Of a DNA stretch of 64,000 bases, positions 37,929-53,794 are shown in pieces (the first letter of the stretch is position 1; each line of letters starts with the position of its first letter). Both the position numbers and the translations under genes were made by a program. The DNA lies in NCBI GenBank assembly GCA_023381515.1, contig JAMCQI010000036.1:6234-70233 (forward strand), read 5' to 3'. The notes under the pieces are model-generated. The model did not search any database. It saw nothing but the letters and a program-made list of their open reading frames with translations, and had not been told where the DNA came from. Source of the DNA: Chloroflexota bacterium (lineage in GTDB: Bacteria; Chloroflexota; Anaerolineae; UBA4142).

Positions 37929-38018
37929 ACCTTACCGCTCTTTGGCGGCAAAAGGAATCACTCGAGCCCGTTGGTTCTTGTCGTAAAAACACCGAACGCG
38001 TCGTCGTTAATTACGACA
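37929..38018 (-). promoter_or_regulatory. Shared-design stress promoter 1 (response regulator gene)
   Basis: On the minus strand, half-sites TGTCGT (38013-38018), ACGACG (38002-38007) and ACGACA (37979-37984) are followed after 21 bases by TTCCTT (37952-37957), then after 17 bases by TAAGGT (37929-37934). Spacings of 17, 21 and 17 bases match the five other instances exactly. The -10 lies 65 bases before the receiver gene ATG. Confidence 0.8.
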
Positions 38019-38061
38019 ACGCGTCCGATGGGGAATAACCCGGCGAAGAACTTCAGGGGAC

Positions 38062-38919
38062 CTATTCGATCAGCCCATGTTCGAGTGCATAGCGGGAGAG
38101 TTCCACATTCGACACACTGTAGGGTACATTAGGGTCTTCGAGGTAGCGGCGCTGGAGTTCGCGCGCGAGTTCCACCTTCGCCGGGTCCACATGAGAAAGC
38201 GCCAATTGCTGAATCGTGCCGTCCTCCGCCGTGACGTGCACCGCGCACCAATCCGCGAGTTGGGGGACCGCGAGACGTGCCACGCTCGCGAGCGTGGTCT
38301 CGTAATCGAGCGAGGAGGCGAGTACGTCGTTCACCTCGGCGAGAAAGCGGGCGGCCTCCTCGGCCCGCTTTCGCTCGGTCGCGTCGCGCACGATCTTGGA
38401 CACGCCGATCGCACGGCCCTGGGTGTCCCGAATCAGGCTTTCGCTGATCGAAACGTCCATCCGCCGACCGTCCTTGGCGACGCGGATCGTGTCAAAAGGG
38501 CCCGTGGATTCGCCGCGCTGGATGCGCTCGAGGATCTGCCCAAATTCGTCGAGGCGATCGGGCGGATAGATGATCTGGACGGATTTGCCGACGACCTCAT
38601 CGGCGGAATAACCGAACAGCCGCTCCGCACCCCGATTCCAAGTCAGAATCGCGCCGTCCAGCGTCTTGCCGATAATCGCATCGTCCGACGAGTTGATGAT
38701 CGCATTCAGCCGGAGAATATCCAGGTCCCATTTCCTCCGCTCGGCGCGGTCGCGGAGGACCAGGGCGATGACAGGTAACACGCTCAACACCATGACCGCA
38801 AGCCGCACGCCACTATCCAACAGGGGAAGGAAAAAGAGGATGATCGCCACCACTGATAGGAGGATCAGCAAAAGTATAGTGCTGAAAGTCAAAAGCGGCA
38901 TCCGCTGGCCTGGAATCAT
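38062..38919 (-). CDS. Membrane PAS-GAF sensor protein with LuxR-like tail
   Basis: A 285-residue protein with two N-terminal membrane helices (residues 9-55), a PAS domain (about 70-190, INSSDDAIIGKTLDGAILTW and EVVGKSVQIIYPPDR) and the first part of a GAF domain (about 195-260). The C-terminus VELSRYALEHGLIE is the ending typical of NarL/LuxR HTH domains. The GAF and HTH cores are deleted, so this looks like an internal deletion product, still open. A smaller remnant of the same gene is at 47929-48171. Confidence 0.7.
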   Translation of the reverse strand: MIPGQRMPLLTFSTILLLILLSVVAIILFFLPLLDSGVRLAVMVLSVLPVIALVLRDRAERRKWDLDILRLNAIINSSDDAIIGKTLDGAILTWNRGAERLFGYSADEVVGKSVQIIYPPDRLDEFGQILERIQRGESTGPFDTIRVAKDGRRMDVSISESLIRDTQGRAIGVSKIVRDATERKRAEEAARFLAEVNDVLASSLDYETTLASVARLAVPQLADWCAVHVTAEDGTIQQLALSHVDPAKVELARELQRRYLEDPNVPYSVSNVELSRYALEHGLIE

Positions 38920-39088
38920 AGGTCACCATAGCGAACGGGAGACAACATCGGACCGTCGACCTCCAATAATTATACGATATAACCAGGTAAGTGGCGCTGG
39001 CCATTGGAACTGGCGAGTGATGCCACGGGAAACCGGCCGATTGAAGGCTCGCCGTAACCTTACCAGAGGAACCATATTGAAGACGCGT

Positions 39089-39178
39089 TGTCGTATTTCA
39101 CGACAGCGCGTATCATCCCTTTACGACAAAAACAAACGAGTCCCAGTGGTTCCTTTCGTCCCCAATGCGCCGTATGCT
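39089..39178 (+). promoter_or_regulatory. Shared-design stress promoter 2 (glsB copy 1)
   Basis: TGTCGT (39089-39094), five bases, ACGACA (39100-39105), 17 bases, ACGACA (39123-39128), 21 bases, TTCCTT (39150-39155), 17 bases, TATGCT (39173-39178). The first pair is an inverted repeat; the third is a same-direction half-site. The segment between the third half-site and the -35 keeps CGAGTCCCAGTG. The leader to glsB is about 105 bases. Confidence 0.82.
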
Positions 39179-39288
39179 GTGTTCACATCCGCAGCAGATC
39201 TGAGAAGATCGGGACTGTGCACTTGACGGATGTTGGGATCTGCGCCAGTCCATGGGCTGGTAATTCGTTCGACCGAAGGAGTAGACAG

Positions 39289-39552
39289 ATGGGAATCTTA
39301 TCTTGGATTGTCGTAGGACTCATTGCCGGCTGGCTCGCCAGTCAGGTGATGCGGGGGGGCGGCTATGGTCTCGTCGGTGACATCATTCTCGGGATCATCG
39401 GGGGACTGGTAGGCGGCTATCTCGCCGGGGCTTTATTCGGAGTGTCAGATGCGGTCAACGGGATCAACGTGCTGAGCATCGTTGTGGCGTTCATCGGGGC
39501 GATGGTTTTGATTGGGCTGAGCCGGATGTTTTTGCACCCTCGCCGGGCCTAG
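39289..39552 (+). CDS. GlsB/YeaQ/YmgE family stress membrane protein (copy 1)
   Basis: An 87-residue three-helix, glycine-rich membrane protein of the transglycosylase-associated family (ILSWIVVGLIAGWLASQVM, GDIILGIIGGLVGGYLAG, IVVAFIGAMVLIGLSRM). Family members are induced in general stress, with unknown biochemical role. GAAGGAGTAGACAG precedes ATG at 39289. Promoter, gene and hairpin are duplicated almost identically at 48144-48652. Confidence 0.9.
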   Translation: MGILSWIVVGLIAGWLASQVMRGGGYGLVGDIILGIIGGLVGGYLAGALFGVSDAVNGINVLSIVVAFIGAMVLIGLSRMFLHPRRA

Positions 39553-51358: not shown

Positions 51359-52990
51359 ATGGCAAAGCAACTTGCGTTTGCCGAAGAGGCTCGGCGACAC
51401 TTGAAAATCGGCGTCGATACGGTCGCGGATGCCGTGAAGACGACGCTTGGCCCCAAAGGGCGCAACGTGGCGCTCGACAAGAAATACGGTGCGCCGACCA
51501 TCACCCATGATGGCGTCACCGTGGCGAAGGAGCTCGAACTGGAGAATCCGTACGATAACATGGGCGCGCAGCTCTTGAAGGAAGCCGCCACCAAGACGAA
51601 CGATGTCGCGGGCGATGGGACGACCACCGCGACGGTGCTCGCGCAAAGCATGGTGACCGAGGGCCTGAAGAACGTCGCCGCGGGTGCGAACGCGATGCTC
51701 TTGAAACGCGGGATCGAAGGCGGCACCGCCTGCCTCGTCGAAGAGATCAAGAAAATGGCCAAGCAGGTTAAGGGCAAAGAAGACATCGCCCACATCGCCG
51801 CGAATTCCGCCGCTGACCCCGAGATCGGCAACCTGCTCGCCGACGTGATGGACAAGGTCGGCAAGGATGGCGTGATCACCGTGGAAGAGAGCAAGACCGG
51901 CCTCGCGTTCGAGACGGAGTACGTCGAGGGCATGCAGATCGACCGCGGCTACATCTCGCCCTATTTCGTGACCAATCCCGAGCGAATGGAAGCGGTCCTC
52001 GAGGATGCCTACCTCCTCCTCACGGACAGGAAAATCTCTGCCCACACCGATATCGTTCCCCTGCTCGAGAAGCTGCTGCAGCTCGGCAAGCGCGAACTCG
52101 TCATCGTCGCCGAAGATGTGGACGGTGAGGCGCTGGCCACTCTTGTACTGAACAAACTGCGTGGCACGTTGAGCGTGGTCGCGATCAAAGCCCCCGGGTT
52201 TGGCGATCGCCGCAAGGAAATGCTGCGCGATTTGGCGATCCTCACCGGAGGTCAGGTCATCACCGAAGAACTGGGCCGCAAGCTGGAGACGGCGCAGATT
52301 GCCGATCTCGGCCAGTGCCGCAAGGTGATCGCGACCAAAGACGACACGACGTTTATCGAAGGCAAGGGCTCGGACAAGGAGATCAAAGGCCGCATCCACG
52401 AAATCAAGGCGCAGATCGACAAGACCACGTCCGATTATGACAAAGAGAAATTGCAGGAGCGACTCGCGAAACTCGCCGGGGGTGTGGCGGTGATCCGCGT
52501 CGGCGCGGCGACCGAGACCGAACTAAAAGAGAAAAAGCATCGCGTCGAAGATGCGCTGAGCGCGACGCGTGCGGCGGTGGAAGAGGGCGTTGTCCCCGGC
52601 GGCGCGGTGGTGTTCCTCAATGTGATTCCTGCGCTGGACAGGGTTGGCGGCACTGGCGACTTTGCGACGGGCGTGCAGATTCTCCGGCGTGCGCTGGAAG
52701 AACCGCTGCGCCAGCTCGCCGAGAACGCCGGGCAGGACGGCGCGGTGGTCGTTGGAGACGTGCGCCGCCTGCAGAGAGAGCAGAGCAACCCCAATATCGG
52801 CTTTGAGGTCATGTCGGAAGAATACGGCGACATGCTGGAGAAAGGGATCATCGACCCCGCCAAAGTCGTGCGCAGCGCGCTCGAGAACGCCGCGTCAATC
52901 GCGGCGATGATCCTGACGACGGAAGCGTTGATCACGGACATCCCGGAGAAGGGGAACCCGGCTCCTATGCCGCAGATGCCGGATTACTAG
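51359..52990 (+). CDS. groEL: Chaperonin GroEL
   Basis: A 543-residue Gro[37 protein letters not shown] (ATP site) and [13 protein letters not shown] are standard. The C-terminus is [11 protein letters not shown], lacking the Gly-Gly-Met repeat tail of many proteobacterial GroELs, as in several other phyla. AGGAGG precedes ATG. Between 52991 and 53286 no gene is recognised. Confidence 0.97.
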
Positions 52991-53286
52991 ACAGATTGGT
53001 CAGTCCTCATGGCCCAGACAAAACCTTGCGCTGGGTCCTCGAGGCGCGCGGTTCGTGGGGCGCAACCTTCGCAAGGCTGTCTGTTGCTCTCGATAGCGAG
53101 TGCCCGAAATGGGAATATGAGAGAGCTTCTGGTCAATATCGCTGAATCAGATTTGACTTCCTGAGGGGCCCGATGACTGATCATGCGAGTGACAGTCGAG
53201 CCAATGACCAGTGGGGTCTAGGTGCGGGTCGTATTGACGTCATGACTGACCGTCAACTCGAGAAGAATAAAAAGTTGAGATCAAAG

Positions 53287-53330
53287 AAAGACCGCCAGAT
53301 TACTCATGTCCGAGTGATTTCGCGGTCTTT
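53287..53330 (+). terminator. Long-stem terminator
   Basis: AAAGACCGC (53287-53295) pairs with GCGGTCTTT (53322-53330), and inside it ATTACTC pairs with GAGTGAT. TTTTTC follows on the plus strand, and the minus strand also begins with A/T-rich sequence. It may stop groESL read-through or end transcription of the tRNA-like remnant. Confidence 0.65.
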
Positions 53331-53340
53331 TTCATTCAAA

Positions 53341-53389
53341 GGTAGCGGGGCTAGGGCTCGAACCTAGCACGATCGGGTTACAAGCCCAC
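53341..53389 (-). tRNA. 3-prime half of a tRNA (Thr-like, anticodon TGT), remnant
   Basis: On the minus strand the loop CTTGTAA (53378-53384, anticodon TGT), a T-arm CTAGG-TTCGAGC-CCTAG, and the acceptor strand CCCCGCT plus ACC are in correct order. A matching acceptor 5-prime strand and D-arm cannot be found upstream. It looks like the 3-prime part left after recombination, as at tRNA integration sites. Confidence 0.45.
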
Positions 53390-53715
53390 AACGGGCAACG
53401 CATATCTTGGGCTCTTGGGGGTGCCTCTCAGCGCAACCTAATGGTCGTGGGTAGTCGCGCACCCAACCGGTTAGAATTCAATATGCACATTATGAAGCCC
53501 AGTTGCCGAAAGGCAAGGATTCTTTTTCCGTGGATCTTGATTAGGGCGATACAGACGAGCTGCGGATGCGGCACCGACCAATTCGGCCAGGCGCCAGCAA
53601 GGGGGTCTTGCGGATGCTTCTCTGTCAGACTCGCTCTTGGGTTAGTTTTCCTATCTACTCCTGCTGCGGGGAGAGCTGCAACAAAAGACCTTGAAAACGA
53701 TCTCACCTTCAGAAT

Positions 53716-53794
53716 ACGACAACGCGTGCGCGTGCTTTACGACAAAAACCAACGAATCCAAATGATTCCTTTTTCGGTCAAAGAGCTGTATTTT
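53716..53794 (+). promoter_or_regulatory. Shared-design stress promoter 6 (AI-2E transporter operon)
   Basis: ACGACA (53716-53721), 17, ACGACA (53739-53744), 21, TTCCTT (53766-53771), 17, TATTTT (53789-53794). The first TGTCGT half-site is absent (ACCTTC at that place). AACGAATCCAAATGA before the -35 corresponds to the CGAGTCC block of other copies. Leader to the ATG is about 100 bases. Otherwise 53390-53897 holds no gene. Confidence 0.78.

Follow-up and report, generated by a model that had tools for sequence, protein, structure and literature searches.

A composite promoter element shared by stress genes of a Chloroflexi family, and its candidate two-component regulator

Stress-gene control in uncultured Chloroflexi seems to be little known. 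Several described systems offer points of comparison. Two-component systems of the NarL/VraR/LiaR type have kinases of the HisKA_3 type, and GacS, of the GacS/GacA system (BarA/UvrY, SirA), is a hybrid kinase, unlike the HisKA_3 kinase found here. The locus of heat resistance is a mobile stress-tolerance island with portable proteostasis and envelope stress genes. HrcA controls groESL through CIRCE (controlling inverted repeat of chaperone expression), for which the consensus TTAGCACTC-N9-GAGTGCTAA was used. PMC4950607 gives the GacA box as TGTAAG-N6-CTTACA, and PMC9040617 describes an orphan regulator of Myxococcus xanthus, MXAN_4468, which sets apart duplicate groELs by negative action, via HrcA and by binding its own gene. 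Here we describe a promoter element that occurs six times in a 64,000-nucleotide stretch of a Chloroflexota genome (contig JAMCQI010000036.1; the whole stretch is called the window), ordered as TGTCGT-N5-ACGACA-N17-ACGACA-N21-TTCCTT-N17-TATGCT, that is, a palindrome, a third half-site and a core promoter. Sequence is enough to name its operator and core, its targets and a candidate for its regulator, so that direct tests are possible.

The sites are probably composite, activator-dependent promoters of one regulon under a two-component system of the GacA/NarL type, to judge from sequence. Searches of the open-licence literature brought up no description of this regulon, nor anything on stress-gene control in uncultured Chloroflexi. 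The candidate regulator is like GacA in its architecture (receiver plus GerE/LuxR domain, about 210 amino acids) and in its best NCBIfam match, but its score lies below the cut-off of that family, and the extra half-site, the non-standard core promoter, the protein-coding stress genes as targets and the HisKA_3 kinase all differ. The kinase and the receiver-GerE regulator are also of the kind found in NarL/VraR/LiaR-type systems, and the nearest solved structures by sequence (PDB) are VraR and NarL, whereas the operator motifs and layout of those systems differ from the three-half-site element. As with HrcA/CIRCE, groESL is among the proposed targets, but the accessory copies concerned lack a good CIRCE. 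The locus of heat resistance has other genes and hosts, whereas the genes of the island described here share a composite promoter and are probably controlled in trans by a two-component system. The palindrome keeps the outer TGT...ACA of the GacA box (PMC4950607). MXAN_4468 is alike as a response regulator that separates duplicate groEL copies, and unlike in its negative action and in that the abstract mentions no composite promoter (PMC9040617).

Six sites of one architecture in the window

The original prediction had placed six sites of one order and spacing in the window, and both a spaced-pattern match and a profile search recovered them. The pattern ACGACA-N21-TTCCTT-N17-TATGCT, with up to three mismatches, has exactly six matches in the 64 kb, all where they had been predicted, against a mean of 0.02 and a largest count of 1 in 100 dinucleotide shuffles of the window, so that chance is ruled out as their source. 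The profile search returned the same six long matches and, down to E = 10, no seventh site in the window; its four extra rows are the palindrome read in reverse. No known RNA element was found in the window by Rfam at the gathering threshold.

Site 1 (37929..38018, minus strand) has the palindrome, third half-site and core promoter and lies ahead of a receiver-only protein. The element is complete at site 2 (39089..39178, plus) and site 4 (48144..48233, plus), ahead of two copies of GlsB, and at site 3 (47770..47859, minus), ahead of a HEAT-repeat protein. Site 5 (50854..50943, plus) precedes groES-groEL, and site 6 (53716..53794, plus) an AI-2E/YihY gene pair. The TGTCGT-N5-ACGACA palindrome precedes five sites, the first half-site being absent at site 6 as predicted. 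The claimed uniformity of the boxes holds overall, with individual departures at site 1 (second half ACGACG, -10 TAAGGT), site 3 (TGTCGC), site 5 (TTCTTT) and site 6 (TATTTT). The two GlsB sites share one 490-bp repeat of 97% identity, and hence five rather than six sites are independent. Pairs of these five sites are on average 0.90 identical in the boxes and 0.59 in the spacers; since the sites were chosen by their boxes, part of this contrast follows from the choice itself. Within the GlsB pair, a duplication, the -35/-10 spacers are identical. A CGAGTCC-like block before the -35 is real; in relatives GTCCaAGTG stands before TTCCTT, with an identity of 0.72 against 0.52 for other spacer. 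The -10 boxes end 64, 110, 64, 110, 65 and 103 nt (in order of position) before start codons set by our own simple gene caller, in agreement with the predicted 60–110 bases.

The genes downstream were examined by Pfam scan. Site 1 faces a receiver-only response regulator of 142 amino acids (37436..37864, minus; PF00072, residues 3-112), which was rejected as a DNA binder since the receiver domain alone was found. The GlsB copies (39289..39552 and 48344..48607, both plus) are Transgly_assoc proteins (PF04226 in copy 1). The protein after site 3 (46470..47705, minus; scanned as 46470-47774), predicted to be a HEAT/BNR protein, has HEAT repeats (PF13646, 43.4 bits), while its BNR-like part stays below the Pfam cut-off (Sortilin-Vps10, 20.4 bits, cut-off 33). 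An accessory groES without CIRCE (51009..51320, plus; PF00166, scanned from 50844) is followed by groEL (51359..52990, plus; PF00118), and site 6 by an AI-2E transporter family protein (53898..55322, plus; PF01594, scanned from 53853) and a YihY/BrkB family protein (55319..56275, plus; PF03631).

With the last base of TATGCT taken as -7, arithmetic places the palindrome at -96 to -80 and the third half-site at about -62 to -57. Among 26 sites without duplicates, the letters conserved in 90% or more include TGTCG, CGACA, ACGACAA, TGATT and TATG. Half-sites that lie outside the core promoter, some 57–96 bp upstream of the expected start, together with a core that matches sigma-70 poorly, form the usual activation layout, making it highly improbable that the regulator acts as a repressor here, although repression can occur within its family.

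The original prediction took the core for a vegetative promoter, a reading that fails: a scan for hexamers resembling TTGACA and TATAAT (9 or more of 12) lists seven sigma-70-like sites, itself the chance level (6.3 expected), and all six -35/-10 pairs are missing from that list. One of the seven overlaps the operator of site 2 instead. The vegetative reading was rejected because the core is not sigma-70-like and is nearly confined to operator sites. Allowing one mismatch, GATTCCNTT-N15-GTATGCT has 29 matches in 14 genomes (none in the reversed control), which by our own count are 22 of the present sites, two paralogous loci, one likely further site and four elsewhere. An alternative-sigma promoter, TGATTCCNTTT-N15-GTATGCT, could be the main unit, with the palindrome serving an auxiliary second factor. 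Some stretches of the core vary no more than the operator does, the core is not of the sigma-70 type, and it is unchanged beside paralogous regulators whose operator is clearly diverged (G008:C150, genome and contig) or of an N7 form (G013:C25). However, the four matches elsewhere compare with 5–6 by chance (hand estimate; reversed control 0), too few for an operator-free sigma regulon to be seen, and no sigma gene was recognised among recurring neighbours, where no profile search for sigma genes was made. We consider this alternative unlikely.

It is very improbable that the palindrome is an intrinsic terminator of the preceding gene instead of an operator. The extended palindrome of site 1 (38030-37990, minus strand) is the most-paired of 25 terminator-like stems listed in 37000-54500 (18.2 expected by chance) and has a TTTTT tail, and the outer arms, which vary, show two-sided in-step changes in 18 cells against 6.6 in shuffles (0 of 500 as high). 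The number of arm pairs with in-step changes, on the other hand, stays within the shuffles (7 against 5.1; 91 of 500 as high). There is hardly any variation in the core TGTCG/CGACA, which stays where the outer arms are lost, at groES and other sites. The distance from palindrome to promoter is fixed, and the palindrome is present where the next upstream gene runs the opposite way (G011:C166). Some copies may also terminate the gene in front, a double role as operator and terminator being possible at some sites.

Conservation, position and targets in related genomes

In the comparison set, the genome nearest to the window is G001, which shares 62% of the window's words. A sequence-only profile of 104 positions (R1) was built from 27 sites, six from the window and 21 from relatives (alignment A2, which leaves out the G011:C80 site, lacking a palindrome). 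It matches eight of 14 genomes of one Chloroflexi family and none of 46 other relatives, and its matches absent from the training set include G011:C23, G011:C80, G012:C39 and G013:C25. In a wider draw of 298 class genomes, with 13 of the 14 family genomes drawn, seven match, all family members; outside the family the element was found in 0 of 285, in a draw that overlaps the first one and had stricter filters. A pattern scan of a genome collection gave 12 stretches, of which nine, all among the sites studied here, come from Chloroflexi-type metagenome-assembled genomes (MAGs) named Chloroflexi bacterium, Anaerolineae bacterium and Candidatus Aquidulcis, from groundwater, sediment, a mine and one unstated source; it is after these names that the family is called Chloroflexi/Anaerolineae here. 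In the other three (Clostridia, Aestuariivita, Lachnospiraceae) the remainder of the element is absent, and they were discounted as chance matches.

A search with the three downstream boxes alone (up to two mismatches) gave 30 rows: six G001 copies of the window sites, 22 sites of relatives, and one match each in G026 and G028, dropped as chance because the rest of the element is absent. The second half-site, with up to one mismatch, lies at the identical place in 20 of the 22, and the first at N5 in 18 and at N7 in three; the exceptions are G001:C15:244 (second half-site with two mismatches) and G011:C80 (no palindrome). With both gaps left free (23 values each), the family genomes gave 23 exact matches, and the reversed control one; 13 of the 23 share one spacing pair and the remaining 10 are all different. 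Fixed spacings persist across genera, and their loss, which would have spoken against the original prediction, was not seen in the relatives. The core spacer is 16 instead of 17 in G011:C23. TGTCGT/ACGACA pairs with up to one mismatch have a gap of 5 in 25 cases, of 7 in 10, and of any other length from 0 to 13 in at most three, counted in fetched loci that were themselves chosen for their sites; a gap of 6, that of the GacA box, occurs once. The bare palindrome TGTCG-N3..13-CGACA proved too common as a search key, exceeding, among the matches listed, the reversed control in all 14 genomes, site-free ones included. A match at 1501 of L128 (G012:C42), with ACGACA-N17-GCTACA before the core, is a likely further site absent from the profile-search list.

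Positions were assessed in 33 scored non-window sites, three of which were dropped and 30 of which reach a score of 35 (six of them G001 copies of window sites). As predicted, they lie before starts and not inside genes: not one of the 30 falls in a called gene, whereas random positions do so in 82% of cases, and for 23 a called start follows within 130 nt, a condition that 3.8% of random positions fulfil. As for the other seven, the sequence examined or its contig runs out at two; at another two a small open reading frame preceded by a ribosome site begins 28 and 84 nt away. One is followed only by a weak GTG frame of 39 amino acids (27 nt) and one by a start 148 nt away, while the last has no start by the rule applied.

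These data also bear on the possibility that the sites descend from a mobile element or a recent duplication and are similar by descent alone. Two of the six window sites are a true duplication, all sit in a mobile-looking island, and the extended palindromes resemble repeat elements. The second half-site, however, which was not a criterion for choosing sites, is 0.90 identical across 26 sites from nine sources, against 0.52 for ordinary spacer letters, and the positions before starts and the differing downstream genes also speak against common descent alone. Such an origin is extremely improbable, and duplication as the sole cause was rejected by the five-site and 26-site identity contrasts.

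The genes behind the sites support the predicted regulon of stress-type genes that includes a groESL. A receiver-only protein comes first in G001 (twice), G007, G009, G012 and G013, with a different receiver protein in G005; groES is first in G001 (twice) and G011. An RRM protein followed by FtsH is found in G012, in G001 after a small gene, and in G011 at 426 nt. Ferritin-like and cytochrome b5-like proteins follow sites in G002 and G007, CsbD in G002 and G011, and GlsB in G001 (twice). Small membrane proteins are also encoded directly after sites, as are, in the island, the HEAT and AI-2E proteins. Two neighbouring genes of locus L080 (G007) may be mentioned: a CarD-like protein (14870-15352), of an RNA-polymerase-binding domain family, lies behind RRM-ftsH in the same gene run and has a BLAST relative at L084 11216-11719, and a gene at 16213-18645 starts, by eye, like an extracytoplasmic function (ECF) sigma factor.

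The family genomes hold 20 groES copies, in 12 of the 14. Twelve copies, one per genome, have a CIRCE with 0–1 mismatch and no site in the 288–1500 nt examined upstream, and are presumably the housekeeping copies. The eight others lack such a CIRCE, and four of these have a site upstream, so CIRCE copies are without the site and accessory copies tend to carry it. Three of the four sites have their scored stretch starting 122, 144 and 202 nt before groES; the fourth (G005:C550) lies farther off, upstream of the preceding gene as well, with its stretch starting at 1160 nt. One of the four copies, G001:C42, is the window's own island copy. The absence of CIRCE claimed for the window groES was confirmed on this near-identical copy, where the best fit within 400 nt has mismatches at 9 of 18 positions. 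Among the accessory copies without a site directly upstream, the groESL of G012:C88 ends a same-strand run, RRM-ftsH-...-groESL, that opens with a site, and has a CIRCE-like match with four mismatches; the groES of G013:C10 has neither CIRCE nor site upstream, and its contig carries a site. Neither CIRCE nor the new operator was found in the stretch examined at G014:C183 and G005:C354 (L170 and L172; 66% and 54% identity). There are thus duplicated chaperonin operons outside HrcA/CIRCE, some under a likely two-component system and one of these on mobile-looking DNA, which is relevant to the way accessory stress genes come under control in a new host.

The candidate kinase-regulator pair

Gene neighbourhood and co-occurrence point to a histidine kinase with an adjoining GacA/NarL-type response regulator as the most likely regulator. 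Such a kinase and a regulator of 210 amino acids are found beside sites in G001:C15, G002:C49, G007:C101, G011:C166, G012:C88 and G013:C10. The regulator has a receiver (PF00072, 4-116) and a GerE domain (PF00196, 148-203); the three kinases scanned all have HisKA_3 and HATPase domains, two of them DUF4118 and one PAS and GAF. Of 92 NCBIfam families matched by the regulator, the best is UvrY/SirA/GacA (NF007018), at 183.1 bits under a curated cut-off of 280. Orthologues of 73–100% identity occur in exactly six of the 14 family genomes, all six with sites (next best match at most 68%), and the chance of all six falling among the eight site-bearing genomes is 28 in 3003 by hand calculation. Six of the eight genomes without an orthologue are site-free. 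In all six orthologue genomes an N5 palindrome begins 36–67 nt behind the regulator gene.

Several observations weigh against this assignment. The two site-bearing genomes without an orthologue, G005 and G009, have no regulator match above 41%; the G005 contig breaks off at the place expected for the regulator, and G009 has a completeness of 69%, which is an excuse for the gap and not a finding. Of the six site-free genomes, three (G003, G008 and G010) hold paralogues of 56–61%, and absences in MAGs are weak evidence in general, family completeness being 69–97%. No good palindrome was found at six of the 10 paralogous regulators examined. The inner letters of the operator, TGTCGT-N5/N7-ACGACA, differ from those of the GacA box (PMC4950607). 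The -35-like block shows more constancy than activator-dependent promoters require of their -35, and another protein may read it. Finally, the window's own two copies of the pair are broken (see below).

An N7 palindrome (up to two mismatches) lies within 450 nt of four of the 10 paralogous regulators, against 82 of 2000 random windows, and at G013:C25 and G008:C150 the same core promoter reads into a receiver protein behind a different operator. These two loci, L109 (G008:C150, 8000-8700) and L090 (G013:C25, 7400-7700), and a third paralogous kinase-regulator locus, L089 (G012:C39, 7870-8010), have related palindromes and the same core type before the receiver gene, and are probably sister regulons with diverged operators.

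In the activator-dependent regulon favoured here, for which binding, activation, control in trans and a signal are inferred, a histidine kinase, probably membrane-bound, would phosphorylate its partner response regulator. The phosphorylated dimer would bind TTGTCGT-N5-ACGACAA, centred about 88 bp before the expected transcription start. Near -60, the third half-site, ACGACAA, would be occupied by one more subunit or dimer, which from there would recruit RNA polymerase to the weak core TGATTCC-TTTT...GTATGCT. As targets we propose genes of proteostasis, of iron and of envelope stress: those for accessory groESL, RRM-ftsH, ferritin, CsbD, GlsB and the receiver-only protein, which may feed back on signalling.

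The island carrying the sites

All six sites lie within an island of at least 25 kb (32913..59127) delimited by identity to G001:C42, which is 99.8% over 32914-58077 and 99.9% over 58204-59127, where C42 ends; the right edge is not resolved. The left flank matches another G001 contig, C79 (98% overall, 92% over the last 112 bases), up to 32912, after which C79 continues differently. An integrase, repeats and a different place in the near relative make it a mobile-looking island, although G001 is a MAG, in which an assembly or binning error could mimic the different location. The left edge carries a 164 bp repeat (32913..33076, plus strand), partly within a fragment of an Mg-chelatase-family gene, presumably of the comM/YifB type, with a 91% partner at 56505-56668. 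Beside the partner lies a large serine recombinase gene (56620..58374, minus; PF00239, PF07508, PF13408).

Two remnants of the kinase-regulator pair lie in the island. In the first (38062..38919, minus), the sensor part of the kinase, with a PAS domain, is fused to the C-terminal tail of the response regulator: residues 1-272 match the kinase HK_G011 (61%) and residues 270-285 the regulator tail (88%). The second (47929..48171, minus) is shorter, with kinase and regulator-tail parts matching at 53–58% and 59–64%. No other, working pair was found in the window, not every gene of which was scanned. An intact pair is present on another contig of G001, C15, suggesting that the island promoters would be driven from elsewhere in the genome. 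Island sites score 87–98, similar to sites elsewhere, in a matrix that the island sites were part of, as expected if they are still used.

More tentatively, and rather less likely than not, the window may hold a portable stress island whose genes share an obligatory composite promoter, its operator joined to a core that is hardly ever met alone, and which has lost its own regulator and is run by the family-specific two-component system of its host. Duplicate groESL operons would then be split between two unrelated controls, HrcA/CIRCE and a two-component activator, and a special RNA polymerase, active only together with the regulator, might read the core. In G013:C10 the kinase-regulator region likewise lies between pieces of an Mg-chelatase-family gene.

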